From a virus: a DNA stretch of 38,416 nucleotides. The notes under the pieces were generated by a model. It saw only the letters and a list, made by a program, of their open reading frames with translations, was not told where the DNA came from and did not search any database. Position 1 is the first letter of the stretch. Each line of letters begins with the position of its first letter. This document shows, in pieces, positions 960 through 27,236 of this stretch. A program made the position numbers and the translations under genes. The stretch is taken from the IMG/VR virus record IMGVR_UViG_3300027963_000144, positions 1-38,416 of that record; one strand, 5' to 3'.

Positions 960-980
960 CCGGAGGACAAGGATGTCCGG
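960..980 (+). promoter_or_regulatory. Putative CsrA-binding stem-loop over the start codon of the 973 gene
   Basis: Bases 960-964 (CCGGA) can pair with 976-980 (TCCGG), leaving the 11-base loop GGACAAGGATG. The loop and its closing base contain ACAAGGATGT (967-976), the exact core of the known CsrA consensus ACARGGAUGU. The Shine-Dalgarno GGAGG (962-966) and the ATG (973-975) lie within the structure. CsrA typically represses translation by binding GGA in such loops over a ribosome binding site. A csrA gene lies at 19913-20113. The match is seen directly; binding is inferred. Confidence 0.55.
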
Positions 981-2847
981 GAACTGGCTTAATAACATAA
1001 AGTACGTCAACCCCGGCGAGCCTGTGCAGGCAGGGGTTGTTAACCGCCCAGATCAAACGCTGGCCGCGCGTACCGACTATTTGAAGGATCGTCTGGACGC
1101 CGCCGCTGTCGGGCAGGCACTGTTCGATTCCGACGCCACAATTGCACCGTCCGTACTACCCGGGCAGCCCGTTTTTTGGAATTACACAACACACCGGTAC
1201 GAATCCGCGCTGGCGGCTGTTGCGGTCGATCAGACAACGCAGGCGCTCGTTGTACAGCCGTCATCAGACTGCGTTGGCATCTGCCTGCATAAAAAGTCTG
1301 AGACGCTCGGCGACATTGTGCTGCGCGGCATCGTCAGCATCCCAGAACTGACTAACGCTATTGTCGCGCCCATCTCGCCCGGCCGGTATTACCTGTCTGG
1401 TGTGGAGCCCGGTAAACTCGTCAAACAGCGCCCCGGCGTTAGCGTAGGCGTGTGCTACGTTCAGGGCCCAAAAGACAACTGCTCTGACGTCCCGCGTGTC
1501 ATTGTGATGCCGACACCGCGAGATTTTATTGCTGAGCACACACATTACCGATTTGAACTTGTAGCACGCCCGGCTGGCGCTGGCTTATCGACAACGCAGC
1601 GTTTTGGTAAAACGCACGCACAAATCGTATCCGAAAATCCAAACCTGCCCGGCTGGTTGCCCGCAAGTAACGCTATTTTTAACGGCAAAGCTCCTGCCGG
1701 CGCAGCATTTGGATACAACATCAAAAAGCATCAGGCGCTTGCCAACGTGTGGCCGCCGTTGCCAATCCAGTCCGTTGCCGTGCTATGGGATAGGGCTGAG
1801 TACCAACACGGCGCTGGTGAAGTGCCGCTCGGCCCGACAGGTCTTGTGATTTGTGACACCAACGGTATTTGGTGGATGTCCAGTTGCTTAGGTGAAACAC
1901 CGTGGCCGGAAAATATCAATCCTAGCGCGCCTGTTACACCGTTTGACCCTACTGCCTGCCCGCTCGATGAGCGCATGCGCATCTCGGTGGTGTTCTTGCG
2001 TATGCTGCTGGGCAATGATCGTAACGCCGTAACCAGCCTTGTGCCCGGCCCCGATAGCCCAATCACCATCTTGAATTGCAATGATCAGCCGGGATCTACG
2101 GGTGACTTAGCGCTTAATTTGAATCTGCAACGTGTTGCCGAAGAAGCCATCGGCGGCGAAGCAATCAAAGAAATTGTTGCGGGTAAAAAGCTTAAAGCTG
2201 GCTGGGTAACCGAGGGCGCGTTTACAACATCCGGCCAGATCAGCATTACTGGCACGCGCGGTGTAAAGCGCAATCTGACCGTAGCGGAGCTTGAAGACCT
2301 AAACATGCCCACGACGGCGGTAGTGCCGCTGCAACAAGGCATATTGAAAATCGACTACACAGACGCGCTGGTTGAACGAGAAGTAGCGCCGCAAATCATT
2401 CGGCTGAGCGACACGGTCGAGCGTCTGTATATGGACATTCCGTATCTTGGTTTCCCAGCTGGGCAGGGTTCGTTGCTGCGCGTGCGGCTCAACGTTGCCG
2501 ACAGCAATCTTGGCGATAATCTGCGGATGAAAATTCGTGTGCGTTTCTTCGGCCGCGGCGGCACACCGACACAGGCGGCGACTCTGCCTGCGCTATACAT
2601 GAGCTATCGCCGGCTGCCAAAGCCCGCCGCGGGCGGTTCGCCGCTGCCGACTACTGACACATCGCTTAGTTTTAATTCCGCCTTGGCGTTGCGACTTGAC
2701 ACGGTTGCGCAAGTAGACAGCGCTGAATTCCAAATCGAAGCTGGCGATACTGTGCTCGTAACGCTTGGCCGCGCAGAAAACACAGCCGACGTATACGCCG
2801 AAGTCGGCGTGTTAAGAATTAGCGGAATTGTTTACAGTGCCACATAA
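973..2847 (+). CDS. Large virion structural protein with N-terminal G-E-P-V / N-R-P motif
   Basis: A 624-residue protein with GGAGG 7-11 bases before ATG 973. Residues about 10-45 contain GEPVQAGVVNRP followed by a short helix (LAARTDYLKDRLD); this kind of segment occurs near the N-terminus of structural proteins in various large phages and may be an assembly or attachment helix. The remainder is beta-rich, with cysteines scattered through residues 95-170 and 295-375 and a Gly/Pro-rich middle. No transmembrane segment or enzymatic motif is visible. It directly precedes the five RYPL-motif paralogues and probably shares their transcript. Its start codon lies in a stem-loop that matches the CsrA consensus, so it may be translationally controlled. 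Exact virion location is unknown. Confidence 0.65.
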   Translation: MSGNWLNNIKYVNPGEPVQAGVVNRPDQTLAARTDYLKDRLDAAAVGQALFDSDATIAPSVLPGQPVFWNYTTHRYESALAAVAVDQTTQALVVQPSSDCVGICLHKKSETLGDIVLRGIVSIPELTNAIVAPISPGRYYLSGVEPGKLVKQRPGVSVGVCYVQGPKDNCSDVPRVIVMPTPRDFIAEHTHYRFELVARPAGAGLSTTQRFGKTHAQIVSENPNLPGWLPASNAIFNGKAPAGAAFGYNIKKHQALANVWPPLPIQSVAVLWDRAEYQHGAGEVPLGPTGLVICDTNGIWWMSSCLGETPWPENINPSAPVTPFDPTACPLDERMRISVVFLRMLLGNDRNAVTSLVPGPDSPITILNCNDQPGSTGDLALNLNLQRVAEEAIGGEAIKEIVAGKKLKAGWVTEGAFTTSGQISITGTRGVKRNLTVAELEDLNMPTTAVVPLQQGILKIDYTDALVEREVAPQIIRLSDTVERLYMDIPYLGFPAGQGSLLRVRLNVADSNLGDNLRMKIRVRFFGRGGTPTQAATLPALYMSYRRLPKPAAGGSPLPTTDTSLSFNSALALRLDTVAQVDSAEFQIEAGDTVLVTLGRAENTADVYAEVGVLRISGIVYSAT

Positions 2848-19912: not shown

Positions 19913-20113
19913 ATGCTCGTTTTATCACGGAAGATGGAAGAAGCGATCATGATCGGCGATAGCGTCACTGTACGCATCATTGAGATCAAAGGTGATCGTG
20001 TAAAGATCGGGCTCACAGCTCCCTCTGCAGTTTCCATCATGCGCGGTGAGTTAATCACCGGCGATAAAAAGAAAAAGAAGAACAATCATGGGCTGGAACG
20101 ACAGACTCCCTGA
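19913..20113 (+). CDS. csrA: CsrA-family translational regulator
   Basis: A 66-residue protein starting MLVLSRKMEEAIMIGD, a clear CsrA/RsmA homologue. CsrA binds GGA motifs in mRNA leaders as a dimer and blocks or alters translation. Leu4 and Arg44, key RNA-contact residues in the Escherichia coli protein, are present, as are G-D at 15-16 and A-P at 36-37. Differences are Glu at position 9 where Gly is usual, Gly45 in place of Glu, and a C-terminal Lys run (KKKKK) followed by a tail. AGAGG lies 8-12 bases before the ATG; the 3' end overlaps the next gene by 26 bases. A candidate phage target lies at 960-980. It could also act on host mRNAs. Confidence 0.93.
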   Translation: MLVLSRKMEEAIMIGDSVTVRIIEIKGDRVKIGLTAPSAVSIMRGELITGDKKKKKNNHGLERQTP

Positions 20114-20339: not shown

Positions 20340-20521
20340 CCCCAGAAGAACAAGCAGTCATTGCTGAGCTGCGTAACCGCGGCTTTGCAGTCATTATCTG
20401 GACGCCGGAAGAACTAGCCGGCGCCAACAGACGCCATGTCGAAGACCGCAGCGTAGAGCTAGGCTGGCAGGTCATTGAAGACCTGAAAGACATGGGCCCC
20501 GATAGCAGCGACGACGACTAG
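20336..20521 (+). CDS. Small phage protein of the PEEL / GW-VI type
   Basis: A 61-residue protein starting in an ATGA overlap with its neighbour. The pattern RGFAVIIWTPEELAGAN, then VEDRSVELGWQVIEDL, matches a small orphan family I have seen in phages and related elements, in which a short strand is followed by P-E-E-L and a V-E-x-x-x-x-x-G-W-x-V-I helix. Function is unknown. The stop TAG lies in a CTAG that is also the stop of the minus-strand gene 20518-21693, giving a 4-base convergent overlap. Confidence 0.55.
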   Translation: MTPEEQAVIAELRNRGFAVIIWTPEELAGANRRHVEDRSVELGWQVIEDLKDMGPDSSDDD

Positions 20522-21693
20522 CGGTTAGCCAGTTCGTGCAGCTTTTCAAGCGACAGCAGCGTATCAACCGCGGCTGACTTAACAACCGCGCCTGCCTGTT
20601 TCTCGGACATGAGGCGGTCGAGGGTAGCCGCCATGCCGCGATCCAGCGTGGGGACGATCTCGGCCAGCTTCTCGCGGTCCATGTAAACGCCGCCGGCGCT
20701 TACCGCGTCAGCAAAGTCGTCGCCCATCCAGTCGCGGACGTCATCAACGGCCAGCTTCTCAAGGTCGTCGAGGGCGTAAACGTTACCAGTGGTCGTCTCG
20801 ACGTTCTGCCCAAGGAAGTCGCGAGCGACCTTCTCGGTGACGGCGAAGAGCACCTCTTCGGGGCGCGGCAGGCCACCGGCGTCATACATCCGGTAGAGCT
20901 TGGTATTCTTATCAAAACCGTCGACCACAGCCGCGAGCTTCAGGCGGGTTTCAGTTTCCCGTGCTTTTTCAGGGTTCTGGTCAACAACTGCAGCCAGCTT
21001 GACCAGCTCAGCGGCAAGGTCGGCGTGTTGGCGCTGTGCCAGACGGGCGCGCTCCTTGAGCATGTCGCTGGCCATCTTGGCGGCGCACATTCCATAGCCA
21101 GCAGCCAGTTCGAGCGAGTCATCAGCGTCGCTGGTGTCGGCTCCGTACTGGGCAGCCTTTTCGAGGATCTTGGTGGCAATCGTGTGCCGGTCTGTAAACA
21201 CAAACTCGTCGCGGTGCGACTTGAAGTGCGCAGCGGCAAACTTTACTTCTGCGGCGTTCCGCAGCGGCCAGTGGCGCTCGACAGCGCCCGAATCCGTCCG
21301 CCACACAATGGCGAAGTCCGAGTCGGGCAGGGCGTTCAAATCCAGCCCAGCGCTGGCGGCAATCTTCTCTTCCAGCTCGGTCACGGCGCCGGCAATACCG
21401 AAGTATTCGGCGGCCTTGTGAATACGAGTTTTAATGGTTGCGGCCTCAGTTTCGTTAAACTGGGCTTGCTTGTCAGAGAAGAACAGCGCCGACATCCATG
21501 TTGCGGGCGCGGTGTGACAAGGGTAAAGTTTATTGTGCTGATCAGCGTACATATGGCGCGGGAGAGTCTCGTTGCCATGGAGTCGCTCTTGACCTGCCGA
21601 CTTAACAAAGTCGGGTGTCGGGTACAGGGCGGTTAACCGGTGTGTCTCGCGACCACTGACGTCATGGGCCTGATCAAGCGGGATAGCTGTCAT
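20518..21693 (-). CDS. Probable virion or assembly-associated protein, opposite strand
   Basis: A 391-residue minus-strand protein whose start (21693) shares a CATG with the next plus-strand gene and whose stop shares a CTAG with the previous one. Upstream on its own strand there is an AGGTAGG-like site. Residues about 45-75 contain LYPCHTAPATWMSALFF, a pattern I have seen in proteins of large phages, next to a helical region. The rest is mostly helical (long Ala/Glu/Lys-rich stretches) with LEKLAVDDVRDWMGDDFADAV near the end. The size and helicity would fit a scaffold, portal-associated or internal virion protein; none of these is proven. Codons are strongly G/C-ending. Confidence 0.58.
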   Translation of the reverse strand: MTAIPLDQAHDVSGRETHRLTALYPTPDFVKSAGQERLHGNETLPRHMYADQHNKLYPCHTAPATWMSALFFSDKQAQFNETEAATIKTRIHKAAEYFGIAGAVTELEEKIAASAGLDLNALPDSDFAIVWRTDSGAVERHWPLRNAAEVKFAAAHFKSHRDEFVFTDRHTIATKILEKAAQYGADTSDADDSLELAAGYGMCAAKMASDMLKERARLAQRQHADLAAELVKLAAVVDQNPEKARETETRLKLAAVVDGFDKNTKLYRMYDAGGLPRPEEVLFAVTEKVARDFLGQNVETTTGNVYALDDLEKLAVDDVRDWMGDDFADAVSAGGVYMDREKLAEIVPTLDRGMAATLDRLMSEKQAGAVVKSAAVDTLLSLEKLHELANR

Positions 21694-24325
21694 GGGTTTG
21701 CCTACCTGTTTAATCCGCCGACATCATCATCTAACCGCCCTATCGGCATTGGGCGTTGCGCCGGAAATCCCTACGTTCCCGGCCGTGGTGAATTGTCCCT
21801 TATGTCAGCAAAATGCGCTACATTTATTTGATGACATCGTAACCGACGGTATCTGGATGCACTGTAATGCCTGTGCAGCTCATGGAGATATCATAACCTT
21901 TGGCGCGGCTGTATGGAATACAAGCCTCCCCGAAGCGTTAAACCGGTTTACAGACTTAGACATTATATCCAGTAGCGATTCCACATATGTAGCCGGGGAT
22001 TACGAGCGGGTCCAATCTCGGCGTGTGACAATGGAGAGTTTCTGGGCTGAAACAGCAGACCAGCTCTGGACTCACGGCGACGACATCGTAGCCTGCCAGC
22101 TCAATGATCTCGGCGTACAGGCGGAGATCAACGCCAAAGGATTAGTCGGCGTCGCGCATCCCGAGCAGATAAACCGGCTGTGCAATGCAATGTCGCGGCA
22201 AAAGCCCGCAAAACTACGCCCTAACGGCCCCAGCATTATCTTTCCGTTCTATGACCTGCCGGGAAGAATGACAGGCGTTCTAGCGGTGCAGTACGCTGAT
22301 AACTTCGAATCCAAAAGCCAGTTCATCCCGTTGGTTGCGAGCTACAACAGGCGAACGGAGGCAGGCTATTTTCTCTTGCACGCGACGTTACTGCCGCCGA
22401 TGGAGATATTTAAAAGCACGCAATTTATCATCGACGATCCGTTCTGGGTGCTTAACGCCCAGTGCCGCCAGCTCCGGCAGGGTCAGGCGTTGCTGCCGCT
22501 CATGGGCAGCTACAGCGGTTCGGAGGCGACTAGCCACGGAGTTAACTGGCAAGCGTTCCCACCCGCGACCCGGCTGTTTCAGGGCACTGTTATAACCCCC
22601 GAGATTATTAGTCGCGCGGAAGCAGCAAAAGGTTACGTCGCTGTATTACCCCCAGCAAAGACATACAGCTACAAACTGGCTAACCCCACGATGGCCCGGC
22701 TGTCGGATATCAGGCGTAACGCAGATACGTGGCAAACCCGGCTGCATCAAACGCTGTCGGGCATGAACGAGATTACAGCGCAGTCCTTCGCCCGCCGGCT
22801 GACCATTCCGCACGACAAGCTCAACGCGTTCTTTCGCAAGTTCGAGCCAAACTTCTCGCCCGGTTTCGCTGACCGTGTATTGTCTTCGTTGAAAAGCCCG
22901 CCGGGTGCGCCGGGACGTATCTACAAGAAGTGGACGATCATCGAACGCGAGAACGGCTGGTGGAATCAACTAGGCCAGCAGATCTGCTCCATCCGCCCAG
23001 TTATTTCCAAGGTTATTCACACAGATACCGGCGAGAAAAGCTACGCCGGAATAATCTATTTAAATGACGAGCAGTTTGAATTCTCAGACAGCGCAGGCCG
23101 GATCGAGCGCATGGGGTTGCTGGCCTACAGCGCGGCCCTACTAGCGCCACGAGGCAAGCTGGTCATTTTCGACCGCGCGTGGAATAAGCGCAGCCATATC
23201 CTAGCCCTGCAGCTTCACGCTCCAGAGATCGTAAACGTCTCCAGTAAACTAGGCTGGGACGAATACGCCAGCGTGTTTCGGTTTGGCCCGTACGAGATAA
23301 CAAACACGGGCGCCGTTGCTCAGACAGTCGTCCTGCCGCAGACCAAGAAACGCGACAGCTTTCCAGAGCCGACCCCGATTGCGCCGCCAGCCATTCATCA
23401 GTTCTTGGCGCCAAGTTATCAAAACGGGTTTATCTGGAATGTATTCAGCGCCGTGGCAGCCAACCTACTGGCGCCCGTCCTGCGGCAGGATTTTACGGCC
23501 GTCGGAATAATCGGTAATAATTTTGGTGCCGCAGCCCGGATTGGCGCGGCGCTTAACTGCGACCAAATCCAGTCGTCGCTCATGCAAAAGAACCACATGA
23601 GCCGGCAGCTATTCGACGCCACAAAACAAATCGACTGGCCGCTGTTTGCGTCCAGCGCTTTTGATGACACGCTGTTTAGCGCCGCTATTACAAAATGCCA
23701 TAACCACGCCGCGGTAGTGCGCCTGTCTCAACTGTGCGCTGCCTCCGCGCCCGGTTATGGCTGGAACGTCATTCAAGGCGAAGCGCCGCCGCCGGCCACG
23801 GATTTCTCGGCACTTCGGCACGTTTTGCCCGCCTATATCCAGCGGGCCTTGCAGAACCGCATGCGCCTTGCCACAACCGGCACGTCGCTCATGGCGTCGG
23901 TGCTGCTGGACCTGCATAAATGGCTGGATGAGGTATACGGCAAGACATTCAATCACGAGTACGCCGCCGGGCAGTTACTTACACCAGCCCACGCCCACGT
24001 CGCCCTGCTGCACGAGATTAATAACGGAATTCAGGCCGGAAAGCTCGATGTGCTGCCAAGACCACGCCGCAAAGACCAGCCTTACAATTACATTCTTCGG
24101 CAAAAAGAACATTGCTGGTTGAATCGTAAGGCCATAGATAGGTATTTTTATAACGGCAAAAGCGTGGTGCCGAACTGGTTGGCAATTGTAGATTTACTGA
24201 CCAACGCCGGCGTGTTTGCTGGTGAAGAGTTAATTCAAGATATGCCCGGCGTTCTTGTAGACGAGAAGTGGTGTAGGCAATTCTGGACCGACGATAATAA
24301 CTCAGCTGCGCGCGACATCGGATAA
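21692..24325 (+). CDS. CHC2-type primase-like protein with a degenerate C-terminal helicase-like domain
   Basis: An 877-residue protein. Cys35, Cys38, Cys58 and Cys61 (CPLC ... CNAC) followed by HGDIITFGAAVW match the DnaG/CHC2 zinc-ribbon that binds template in phage primases. The middle should hold the catalytic or TOPRIM-like part but I see no clear acidic signature. From about residue 390 the chain resembles DUF927-type helicase-like domains: KLGWDEYASVF, then NVFSAVAANLLAPVL, then a glycine loop at 608-616 reading GNNFGAAAR where a P-loop would have G-K-T. If that is the ATPase site, it has lost Lys and Thr. ATG 21692 is shared with the minus gene in a CATG. Likely a replication initiation or primase protein. 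Confidence 0.6.
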   Translation: MGLPTCLIRRHHHLTALSALGVAPEIPTFPAVVNCPLCQQNALHLFDDIVTDGIWMHCNACAAHGDIITFGAAVWNTSLPEALNRFTDLDIISSSDSTYVAGDYERVQSRRVTMESFWAETADQLWTHGDDIVACQLNDLGVQAEINAKGLVGVAHPEQINRLCNAMSRQKPAKLRPNGPSIIFPFYDLPGRMTGVLAVQYADNFESKSQFIPLVASYNRRTEAGYFLLHATLLPPMEIFKSTQFIIDDPFWVLNAQCRQLRQGQALLPLMGSYSGSEATSHGVNWQAFPPATRLFQGTVITPEIISRAEAAKGYVAVLPPAKTYSYKLANPTMARLSDIRRNADTWQTRLHQTLSGMNEITAQSFARRLTIPHDKLNAFFRKFEPNFSPGFADRVLSSLKSPPGAPGRIYKKWTIIERENGWWNQLGQQICSIRPVISKVIHTDTGEKSYAGIIYLNDEQFEFSDSAGRIERMGLLAYSAALLAPRGKLVIFDRAWNKRSHILALQLHAPEIVNVSSKLGWDEYASVFRFGPYEITNTGAVAQTVVLPQTKKRDSFPEPTPIAPPAIHQFLAPSYQNGFIWNVFSAVAANLLAPVLRQDFTAVGIIGNNFGAAARIGAALNCDQIQSSLMQKNHMSRQLFDATKQIDWPLFASSAFDDTLFSAAITKCHNHAAVVRLSQLCAASAPGYGWNVIQGEAPPPATDFSALRHVLPAYIQRALQNRMRLATTGTSLMASVLLDLHKWLDEVYGKTFNHEYAAGQLLTPAHAHVALLHEINNGIQAGKLDVLPRPRRKDQPYNYILRQKEHCWLNRKAIDRYFYNGKSVVPNWLAIVDLLTNAGVFAGEELIQDMPGVLVDEKWCRQFWTDDNNSAARDIG

Positions 24326-24603: not shown

Positions 24604-25065
24604 ATGCAAACTTTCTTACCGAGCAGAAGCTTTCGAGTCTCAGCGCGGTGTTTAGATAACAAAAGGCTCGGCAAGCAACGAGTCGAATGCAAACAAATTC
24701 TCTTGGCGCTCGGCGTGGGTATCGGACAGCACGAACCCTATGTATCTCGCTGGCGCAACCATCCGGCCGTAAAGATGTGGGCCGGGCATGAGCTAGCACT
24801 AGTGGTTTATTCCGCCGTCGTTTGCCGTGAGTGGATCTCCCGCGGCTTCAACGACAACCTGCACCCGGAGTTCATGGCAGTCTATTCCCGGATGCGCCCG
24901 CTCGTGGTACACAATCATTACCCGCCGTGGATAGGCAGCCGTAGGTTCCACGCTTCTCACAGGAGCAACCTGCTGCGCAAAGACTACGCGTACTACTCAA
25001 AATTTGGGTGGCAAGAGCCTGTAGATCTGCCATACTATTGGCCGGAGGCTGCAGCTCTTACATAA
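24604..25065 (+). CDS. Pyrimidine dimer DNA glycosylase-like protein (MSMEG_6728-type family)
   Basis: A 153-residue protein with AAGGAG 5-10 bases before ATG 24604. It opens MQTFLPSRSFRVSARCLDNKRLGKQRVE and continues with WRNHPAVKMWAGHE and FHASHRSNLLRKDYAYYSKFGW, the hallmark segments of the MSMEG_6728 family, grouped with pyrimidine dimer DNA glycosylase / endonuclease V. Such proteins would excise UV photoproducts or act on damaged bases. In T4 endonuclease V the N-terminal Thr after Met removal is catalytic; here Gln follows Met and Thr is third, as usual in this branch, so the chemistry is uncertain. It precedes the Thr tRNA by 7 bases. Confidence 0.75.
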   Translation: MQTFLPSRSFRVSARCLDNKRLGKQRVECKQILLALGVGIGQHEPYVSRWRNHPAVKMWAGHELALVVYSAVVCREWISRGFNDNLHPEFMAVYSRMRPLVVHNHYPPWIGSRRFHASHRSNLLRKDYAYYSKFGWQEPVDLPYYWPEAAALT

Positions 25066-25072
25066 ATAGATT

Positions 25073-25145
25073 GCCAGTGTAGCTCAGTTGGTAGAGCGTC
25101 AGTTTTGTAAACTGAATGTCGCCGGATCGTTCCCGGCCACTGGCT
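25073..25145 (+). tRNA. tRNA-Thr (anticodon TGT)
   Basis: A full cloverleaf can be drawn: acceptor 7 bp (GCCAGTG/CACTGGC), D-stem GCTC/GAGC with loop AGTTGGTA, anticodon stem TCAGT/ACTGA around loop TTTGTAA (anticodon TGT, reads ACA-type Thr codons), 5-base variable loop, T-stem GCCGG/CCGGC with loop ATCGTTC. All stems are perfect. The T-loop is unusual (A54 and T58 where T54 and A58 are standard) and position 73 is T. CCA is not encoded. Confidence 0.93.
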
Positions 25146-25181
25146 TTGTTAAAATCTGTGTTAAGTCTTGGAGGATTTAAC

Positions 25182-25622
25182 ATGGACTTCTGGATCAAAA
25201 TTAAAGATATCAATGAGCTGCGTACGATTGACGTAACAGCTATCTACACGCGGCTGTCGTGGCCGGATTCAAAAAGCGACAGCTCGATTCGCAAAGAGCT
25301 GGAAAAGCGCTACATCAATCCAGAGCCCGGCCCGCACCCCGAGATGGCCATCGCCATCATCTGGTGCAACGCCGTGCTGGCGGGTTGGGTCGGCACACGC
25401 CCGTGGCCTGAAAAGCTCAACGGCGAGCCGGTCACAGCCCAAACCATCGAGTGCTTTGTCGATCCTGAGCTGCGAAACCGAGGTTTTGCCCAGCTCGGCC
25501 TGCAAGCCTTGATGAGCGCCGGCCACGTTGCTAGAGATAAACCTGTAGCTGTCTACCACAAATCCGTACTCAAGATCGCGGAGAGGGGAGGCTGCAAAAT
25601 CGTATTGCTATGCGAGCCATAG
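25182..25622 (+). CDS. GNAT-family N-acetyltransferase
   Basis: ATG 25182 is chosen because GGAGG lies 7-11 bases upstream; the frame extends further 5' into the tRNA and is not used. The 146-residue product has a GNAT-type core: a strand (MAIAIIWCNAVLAGWVGTR), then TIECFVDPELRNRGFAQLGLQAL, where RNRGFA fits the R/Q-x-x-G-x-A acetyl-CoA pyrophosphate loop, and a C-terminal strand. GNAT enzymes transfer acetyl groups to amines or proteins; the substrate cannot be read from the sequence. In phages they may modify host proteins or antibiotics, but nothing here decides that. Confidence 0.65.
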   Translation: MDFWIKIKDINELRTIDVTAIYTRLSWPDSKSDSSIRKELEKRYINPEPGPHPEMAIAIIWCNAVLAGWVGTRPWPEKLNGEPVTAQTIECFVDPELRNRGFAQLGLQALMSAGHVARDKPVAVYHKSVLKIAERGGCKIVLLCEP

Positions 25623-25637
25623 CTGAAAGGATGCTAA

Positions 25638-27236
25638 ATGCGGTTCCATGATTTTGAAAGTGCAAAAAGTCGAATAATTGCGGATTGTCAACAAAAATTA
25701 AAAGCAGCTGGGCGGCCTGAGTCTTTGTCCGTTCTTACCGGCAGCGTAATGTATACAACATCAATACAAAACGCGCGCAAACGTAGCAGCAAAGAAGTAC
25801 TTGAGCATGTCATAAAACAACCGCCGCTTGATATTAAAGGCGGTAAGTACGAAGCCAAGTGCCAAGGCGATAGCGAACGCGAACATATCTCAGCGCTATC
25901 AGAATACGAATGGCTTGAATCAGATCGGCCGTTTTACAACGTGTATCCAATTGTTGAAAAGTTAGTGCGGAATACAAAACTGCAAGTCTCTGCCGCCTTT
26001 TTAAACTTGCCATACCGAACAATGTTATTTCGTTTTCCGGCAGGTCATGAACCGTACGGCATCAAAACAATTCTGCTTACAGTAGGCCACCCGCACAATG
26101 TGCCAAAAAATACTGAGTATTTCAACTCTGCGGGCGAAGACATCATGCGCGGTGTTGCCGCAACAGCAACTGTGCAGTATGTGCATACACTCTCTGACGA
26201 GTCTAAGCACGACGTGTTTACGCTTGCGGCGCTATTTTCCCGCGTTGCTCACAACGCATTCCGCCCATACGAACCTAGATTTCCGTTAAATTTTGGCGAT
26301 CAAACAGGTTACACTGAGCGCGCTATGCAATATCAAGCGTTGCAGGCACCAGACCCATTGTCGCCAGACGAACAATTTGGGTTTTCACGCAATTTTGAAC
26401 GGATTCCCGGAAACACTAATGACTCAGCCGAGGGAGCGCAATGTATTTTACGCTCACTTGAAGAAACAATTTTGGCGCAGCGCGACATAGAAATATATCC
26501 GGGGAATAGAAAATCGCACCCAACCTATATGGGGTTTCAGTCGCAAGAAGTGCATGAATTTGTTTTTAAGTTGGCTATGCTCACGTCTATGCTCCATCGC
26601 GGCGATAACCTAATCGCGCCAATCGTGTTGGCTAAACATCAAGAACGCTACGACAAAGAAACAGACGCCGCCGCAAAAAAATGGCTTGAAGACAAAGCGG
26701 CACAAATCCAAGGTCGCGGCTTTTCTGTTGGCAAAGAGCTGCAGAAAAAAACAGAGATATCGCCACACATTCGCAACCCGCACATGGCGCTGTACTGGAC
26801 AGGCCCGGGCCGCAAAGAACCGGTGTTAATTTTTCGCGCTGGCGCCAAGGTTCTGCTTAAGAAACTGGAAAGTGTTCCTACTGGTTTCTTAGGTCCAGAA
26901 AAACCAGACGAGACAGCAGAAAACACACGAGAAGAATACGTTTACTTCTTGCGTGAGCCATATACCGGGTTTGTTAAAATAGGGCGTACAAGCCGCACAG
27001 TTGCTGAACGTAAGCGACAATTAGAGTGCGGGATTCATGGGCTGATACTTGTCGGTCATATTGTGACAGGAGACTGCGTAGCGCTGGAAACTCGCTTGCA
27101 TAGAGAACACGCAGCAAAACGACGGCGCCGCGATGACGGCCGGCAAAGCGAATTTTTCGAGCTGACAGACGCTGAAGTCCAGAATATTGTCGCCCAGCAC
27201 GGCGGCACGTTTCACCTTGACATGGAGACAGAATGA
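25638..27236 (+). CDS. Protein with C-terminal GIY-YIG-like (MUG113/T5orf172) nuclease domain
   Basis: A 532-residue protein with AAAGGATG 8-15 bases before ATG 25638. Residues about 434-525 match the T5orf172/MUG113 branch of GIY-YIG nucleases: EEYVYFLREPYTGFVKIGRTS, a following R-K-R-Q-L segment, ALETRLHREHAAKRRRRDD, and EFFEL. The N-terminal 330 residues are of unknown family. A segment at about residues 370-410 (ISPHIRNPHMALYWTGPGRKEPVLIF) resembles a motif widespread in phage and plasmid hypotheticals. The gene uses more A/T-ending codons than its neighbours, hinting at a different origin. Homing, restriction or repair are all possible roles. Confidence 0.6.
   Translation: MRFHDFESAKSRIIADCQQKLKAAGRPESLSVLTGSVMYTTSIQNARKRSSKEVLEHVIKQPPLDIKGGKYEAKCQGDSEREHISALSEYEWLESDRPFYNVYPIVEKLVRNTKLQVSAAFLNLPYRTMLFRFPAGHEPYGIKTILLTVGHPHNVPKNTEYFNSAGEDIMRGVAATATVQYVHTLSDESKHDVFTLAALFSRVAHNAFRPYEPRFPLNFGDQTGYTERAMQYQALQAPDPLSPDEQFGFSRNFERIPGNTNDSAEGAQCILRSLEETILAQRDIEIYPGNRKSHPTYMGFQSQEVHEFVFKLAMLTSMLHRGDNLIAPIVLAKHQERYDKETDAAAKKWLEDKAAQIQGRGFSVGKELQKKTEISPHIRNPHMALYWTGPGRKEPVLIFRAGAKVLLKKLESVPTGFLGPEKPDETAENTREEYVYFLREPYTGFVKIGRTSRTVAERKRQLECGIHGLILVGHIVTGDCVALETRLHREHAAKRRRRDDGRQSEFFELTDAEVQNIVAQHGGTFHLDMETE

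Follow-up and report, generated by a model that had tools for sequence, protein, structure and literature searches.

Candidate CsrA-type hairpins over the start sites of virion and other genes in a group of large phages

Phages commonly control translation through operators placed over start sites. T4 RegA, T4 gp32 and the MS2 coat protein read operators of this kind, and these readers are phage-specific and largely autoregulatory. The sites described here would likewise be protein-read RNA elements in the start regions of phage genes; unlike the T4 and MS2 operators, their candidate reader belongs to a family of bacterial global regulators and one loop is common to several genes.

In bacteria, the repression sites of CsrA, RsmA and RsmE (for instance in the glgC, hcnA and psl leaders) and the hairpins of RsmZ share the same ANGGAN hexaloop hairpin, which in mRNAs lies on the ribosome-binding site. 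Among the ligands selected by CsrA in SELEX, 44 of 55 had six-base loops with an upstream AC paired to a downstream GU (PMC7652899), and an AAGGAU loop is present in hairpin 2 of RsmZ, whose binding has been measured (PMC3791407); both the AC/GU closing and this loop recur in the phage site at position 973. The phage candidate sites differ from the bacterial ones in that they lie on tail sheath and probable capsid genes, usually one per leader. Mobile elements with a CsrA homologue are also known: csrA genes were surveyed in 30 phages in 2020, where a role for the element awaits loss-of-function tests (PMC7366521), and a plasmid homologue, RsmQ, has been described (PMC9928087). These studies describe the homologues or how they affect the host, whereas the phages analysed here carry conserved candidate targets on the phage itself.

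The window, that is, the whole stretch of DNA analysed, is a 38-kb virus record. The features of the site at 973 and the csrA gene of the window are the following:

960-964/976-980, plus strand: outer hairpin CCGGA/TCCGG with an 11-nt loop, the alternative fold
962-966, plus strand: Shine-Dalgarno GGAGG of the 973 gene
965-969/974-978, plus strand: inner hairpin GGACA/TGTCC with loop AGGA, the best-supported structure
973-2847, plus strand: target gene of 624 aa, starting at ATG 973
19913-20113, plus strand: phage csrA of 66 aa (PF02599)

The sequence ACAAGGATGT at 967-976 on the plus strand overlaps ATG 973 and is an exact ten-base SELEX core of a CsrA site, as the preliminary description had stated; it is the sole exact match to ACARGGATGT on either strand of the window. 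That description had also put the chance expectation below one per window, and dinucleotide shuffles actually give 0.06, with at least one match in six of 100 shuffles. Compared with the longer SELEX consensus RUACARGGAUGU, the core is exact and the leading RU is replaced by GG. Nevertheless, the number of one-mismatch matches in the window is unremarkable and therefore the single site, taken by itself, is suggestive and not proof.

Two mutually exclusive and near-isoenergetic hairpins can form at this start, which lies 24 nt past the stop of the preceding gene. In its hexaloop form the inner hairpin reads GGAC(AAGGAU)GUCC, an ANGGAN loop containing GGA, and this fold is the expected CsrA form because it combines the AC/GU pairing of the SELEX loops with the loop of RsmZ hairpin 2. 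Minimum-free-energy folding of the 973 gene and its relatives (n=12) gave the inner hairpin in eight cases and the outer one in four. The CCGGA/TCCGG hairpin proposed earlier can indeed form; however, the two outermost pairs of its stem are broken in several relatives, while neither the inner stem nor the GGA varies, and for this reason we rejected the outer hairpin as the main structure. As far as the sequence tells, the best-supported structure is thus the inner SELEX/RsmE-type hairpin and not the stem with the 11-nt loop. The site therefore shows a short hairpin with GGA in its loop, an ANGGAN hexaloop and an overlap with the start codon, as CsrA/RsmE sites do.

Regarding the gene itself, the 624-aa protein had no match in Pfam or PHROG, protein P0001 had none in the annotated phage collection, and the only Rfam family found in the window was a tRNA. 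Its neighbours suggest a virion gene, located in what appears to be a tail-fibre/baseplate-like cluster.

Protein searches of IMG/VR gave 11 and then 23 relatives of the 973 gene, on contigs of up to 205 kb. The start-site sequence GGAGGACA[A/C/-]GGATGTCC is kept in all 23 (54-68% amino acid identity), so that both site and hairpin are conserved in related phages, and the loop base preceding GGA is the sole variable base of the core; the sequence farther upstream diverges. Few of the remaining leaders in the window reach a comparable conservation. Among eleven sequences, 12 of the 263 invariant positions other than Met and Trp use a single codon, Ser2 (TCC, in the stem) and Asn4 being two of these 12, and the wobble position of codon 3, just beyond the stem, has three different bases. 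The 973 stem, for its part, is conserved rather than covarying. In the outer stem, pairs are compensated in L121 and L130 (TTGGA/TCCAA) and broken in L122/L133, L123/L135 and L128/L129. A clear second hairpin is present only in the subclade of L121, L122/L133 and L130, with its GGA 26 nt upstream of the first GGA, a CGGA or UGGA loop and a stem unlike the first one; by analogy, these paired hairpins resemble dual-site CsrA targets. A second site, for the opposite face of the dimer, is a frequent though not an obligatory feature of CsrA targets.

We surveyed 20 related phage records, about 2.8 Mb in all, omitting G002 from the counts as it is near-identical to G001 in the compared gene. In the start regions of 182 orthologue clusters, the AxGGAx hexaloop was inside a hairpin in 69 of its 690 occurrences. 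The control loops were in hairpins far less often: 0.8% for BxGGAx, 0.1% for GGAxxx, 0.4% for xGGAxx, 0.7% for xxxGGA, 0.3% for xxGAGx, 0.1% for xxAGGx and none for xxAAGx. Several of these have an equally good Shine-Dalgarno, and therefore the Shine-Dalgarno alone does not account for the AxGGAx signal. Genome-wide, ANGGA ranked first of 256 hexaloop classes by hairpin rate (1.16%, where the classes averaged 0.28% and the second-ranked one had 0.59%); in 1.05 Mb of unrelated IMG/VR contigs its rate was 0.41%, in sixth place, and the top class of that control, ANCCT, probably reflects the motif by which those contigs were chosen, read on the reverse strand. Since the records are related to each other, the independent units in these counts are about five to seven gene families and not the individual leaders.

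Several gene families contribute to this signal. In a gene of 308 aa, C(A[CT]GGAG)G is found in every distinct leader across 50 loci, on stems that include GGAAC, AGAAC, AAGAC, GGAC, AAAC, TTTC and GCAC with their complements. This hairpin persists down to relatives at 72-79% identity; L411 has a stem mismatch, and L440 and L442 have three pairs only. As to covariation, 21 cells of this hairpin changed on both sides, where shuffling gave 5.0 (0/500), with two of the five measures not extreme. The 308-aa protein is probably the major capsid protein, because two of its ten members match a PHROG major-head family weakly and because of an identity among relatives of 90-99%, most window proteins being at 40-80%. 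It had no credible match among solved structures, and the AF2 models of P0001 (pLDDT 41) and of the 308-aa protein (pLDDT 29) were unusable. The 205-kb contig G001 has copies of the start of this gene, differing slightly in sequence, at both ends (MPTQQEV and MPTQQEI); the genome may be circular with the two as tandem paralogues, or else the duplication comes from the assembly.

The tail sheath gene has GGC(A[CT]GGAG)GCC or a close form in 16 of 16 cases, a gene of about 250 aa (MKK) has a site in nine of ten and an HNH-like gene in six of six. One more target lies in the window:

25159-25182, plus strand: hairpin TGTTAAGTC(TTGGAG)GATTTAACA, covering the Shine-Dalgarno of the GNAT gene
25182-25622, plus strand: GNAT-family acetyltransferase gene of 146 aa (Pfam PF00583, at cut-off)

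The loop of the GNAT hairpin in the window, UUGGAG, has a leading U where most relatives have A. Covariation is clear: in 11 genomes, eight of the ten pairs changed on both sides with 93.6% of the cells paired, and none of 500 shuffles was comparable on any of the five measures. The candidate sites of the capsid, sheath and GNAT leaders overlap the Shine-Dalgarno. Judged by their sequences, the 973 site is thus one of a set of several candidate sites across the phage genes.

The surroundings of these genes showed some other features. Directly upstream of the GNAT hairpin there is a conserved TATACT-like element (TAAAAT in the window; 25146-25182), itself immediately behind a tRNA-Thr at 25073-25145, and the GNAT mRNA may therefore begin near the hairpin. 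At 25638-27236 lies a gene of 532 aa with a T5orf172/MUG113 domain, present in two of ten comparable relatives (G007 and G008) at other positions, which makes it a candidate mobile gene. The divergent genes at 20518-21693 (minus strand) and 21692-24325 (plus strand) overlap at their starts, and the region around these starts is among the most conserved leaders of the window; this region is perhaps one of shared control. On the minus strand of G001 near 99193, AAGTACAGGATGTACAA forms a perfect GTACA(GGA)TGTAC hairpin with a CsrA core and is conserved within a coding frame (K-Y-R-M-Y-K), likewise in six other records; this may be codon conservation only.

Some candidates were set aside. The hairpin ATAG(AAGGAG)CTAT on the window gene at 24604 was present in G000 and G020 only and was treated as chance. 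A hairpin cluster at the apparent start MDPDHVPIIQ belongs to a terminase fragment and probably marks an internal Met of the terminase gene. Cluster 115, the MSSIGYRQKG leader and a 77-aa leader were weak or partly conserved and were left out of the targets, and L239, a contig outside the group that has GGAGGACAAGGATGTCC where an ORF starts, is a 15-kb record without csrA.

The CsrA of the window matches PF02599 with 70.2 bits (cut-off 27; E 1.4e-19) as well as solved CsrA structures, and it has both Leu4 and Arg44, as noted before. Among its relatives Arg44 is present in all, and Leu4 is replaced only once, by Ile. The gene is syntenic, adjoining the same neighbour gene in 37 of the 41 loci covering that neighbour. 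Records G009 and G017 stop short of the csrA locus, as G013 probably does too; the absence of csrA from its locus looks real in the L477/L490/L499 lineage, in L504 and in record G046. In the 168-kb record G014 (the same as L490), an unfiltered HMM search found no csrA and the two genes flanking the locus almost abut. This record, the best covered of those lacking csrA, keeps the 973, capsid and sheath sites, with ANGGA still the top class, and in G046 the neighbour gene is present, csrA is absent and the capsid site is intact. Therefore, the sites are independent of a phage csrA copy at its locus, and the host CsrA probably also reads them. A host was sought through genome contigs and none was found. 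The distant relative G041 (the L440 record) has two CsrA matches, at 50261-50434 and 92645-92734, one of them strong and elsewhere and the other weak, diverged and beside the usual neighbour gene.

No such hairpin enrichment was seen near csrA in 52 other phage contigs, which means that the putative regulon is a feature of the present phage group and not of csrA phages generally. In one unrelated phage (IMGVR_UViG_3300037541_000871, 10360-10730 of L372), csrA is directly followed by a seemingly non-coding stretch with repeated GGACCG(ACGGAG)CGGTCC and GGACCG(TAGGAA or TGGGAA)CGGTCC hairpins, six of the hairpins with strong stems, and this array is possibly a CsrB/RsmZ-like sponge RNA.

We consider it probable that the virion genes and other genes of these phages are under CsrA-family translational control, most likely repression, by the phage CsrA, the host CsrA or both. 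The observations behind this are the sites themselves, the loop specificity, the conservation, the stem covariation, the position in the start region and the syntenic csrA. These phages of about 200 kb would carry a set of CsrA/RsmE-type mRNA sites, short hairpins whose ANGGAN hexaloop contains the Shine-Dalgarno; the loop of the 973 gene instead contains the GG preceding the start codon together with its A. A CsrA-family dimer would bind the loop, stabilise the hairpin and block 30S initiation, and the target would be well translated only when free CsrA is low. Besides the 973 gene, the probable major capsid gene, the tail sheath gene, the GNAT gene and a small number of further genes are predicted targets. 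In most lineages the phage's own CsrA would be the reader, with the host CsrA probably binding the same sites and probably being the sole reader where the phage lacks csrA. This sequence of binding, repression and release late in infection is drawn from CsrA biology, and activation instead of repression by the candidate sites is possible.

Alternatively, the host CsrA might be the sole reader and the phage CsrA might have another job, such as remodelling host mRNAs, in which case the translation of virion genes would track the Csr state of the host. The sites and the ANGGA rank retained in G014, together with the capsid site of G046, speak for this; nevertheless, we regard it as unlikely, given that 37 of 41 loci retain csrA at one position with its RNA-binding residues, which fits a use within the phage, and that the records lacking it are incomplete and could have the gene elsewhere. 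It is quite improbable that the hairpins are structural elements of start sites, or operators of some other phage protein, with CsrA uninvolved. Although such operators are frequent in phages and the 973 stem is conserved without covariation, unrelated genes share the A-N-GGA-N loop on stems that differ and covary, loops with other Shine-Dalgarno registers are hardly ever in hairpins, and the recurring loop is the known CsrA/RsmE signature (PMC7652899, PMC3791407).

Slightly less probable still is a sponge, in which abundant late mRNAs would titrate the host CsrA and alter host metabolism. The mRNAs of two of the targets, the sheath gene and the probable capsid gene, are likely to be abundant; however, there is a single site per leader, always on the ribosome-binding site, and in the 20 records there is no cluster of at least four such hairpins within 350 nt, nor the array of GGA-loop hairpins in a non-coding RNA that characterises CsrB/RsmZ-type sponges. 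Finally, that the match at 973 is due to chance has a negligible probability: 6% of the shuffled windows do hold an exact match, but all 23 relatives keep the site amid diverging flanks.

The observation at 973 thus stands and is stronger than the preliminary description thought. It had suggested a phage-internal switch on a virion gene, of which the conserved start-codon site in phages that mostly bear csrA holds good, whereas the purely internal character does not fit the csrA-less lineages that keep the sites. Returning to CsrA-family control, a more specific form of it can be put forward tentatively, as a phage-borne Csr network in which the phage CsrA and its own sites would restrain capsid, sheath and other genes until late, with the host CsrA also reading the sites so that assembly would track the carbon and growth state of the host. 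The CsrA site and phage csrA were each known already; the conserved set of sites on phage virion genes appears to be new, as we found no description of CsrA sites on such genes in the open literature, subscription journals lying largely outside the search.

Given the start-site hairpins and the presence of csrA in most of these phages, the production of virus particles is probably timed by CsrA, a regulator whose study has until now centred on bacteria. Candidate CsrA targets can thus be read from sequence in a whole group of large uncultivated phages, and it becomes directly testable whether a global regulator of bacteria times virion assembly post-transcriptionally. The candidate sites on its own genes also give the phage a reason for keeping csrA.
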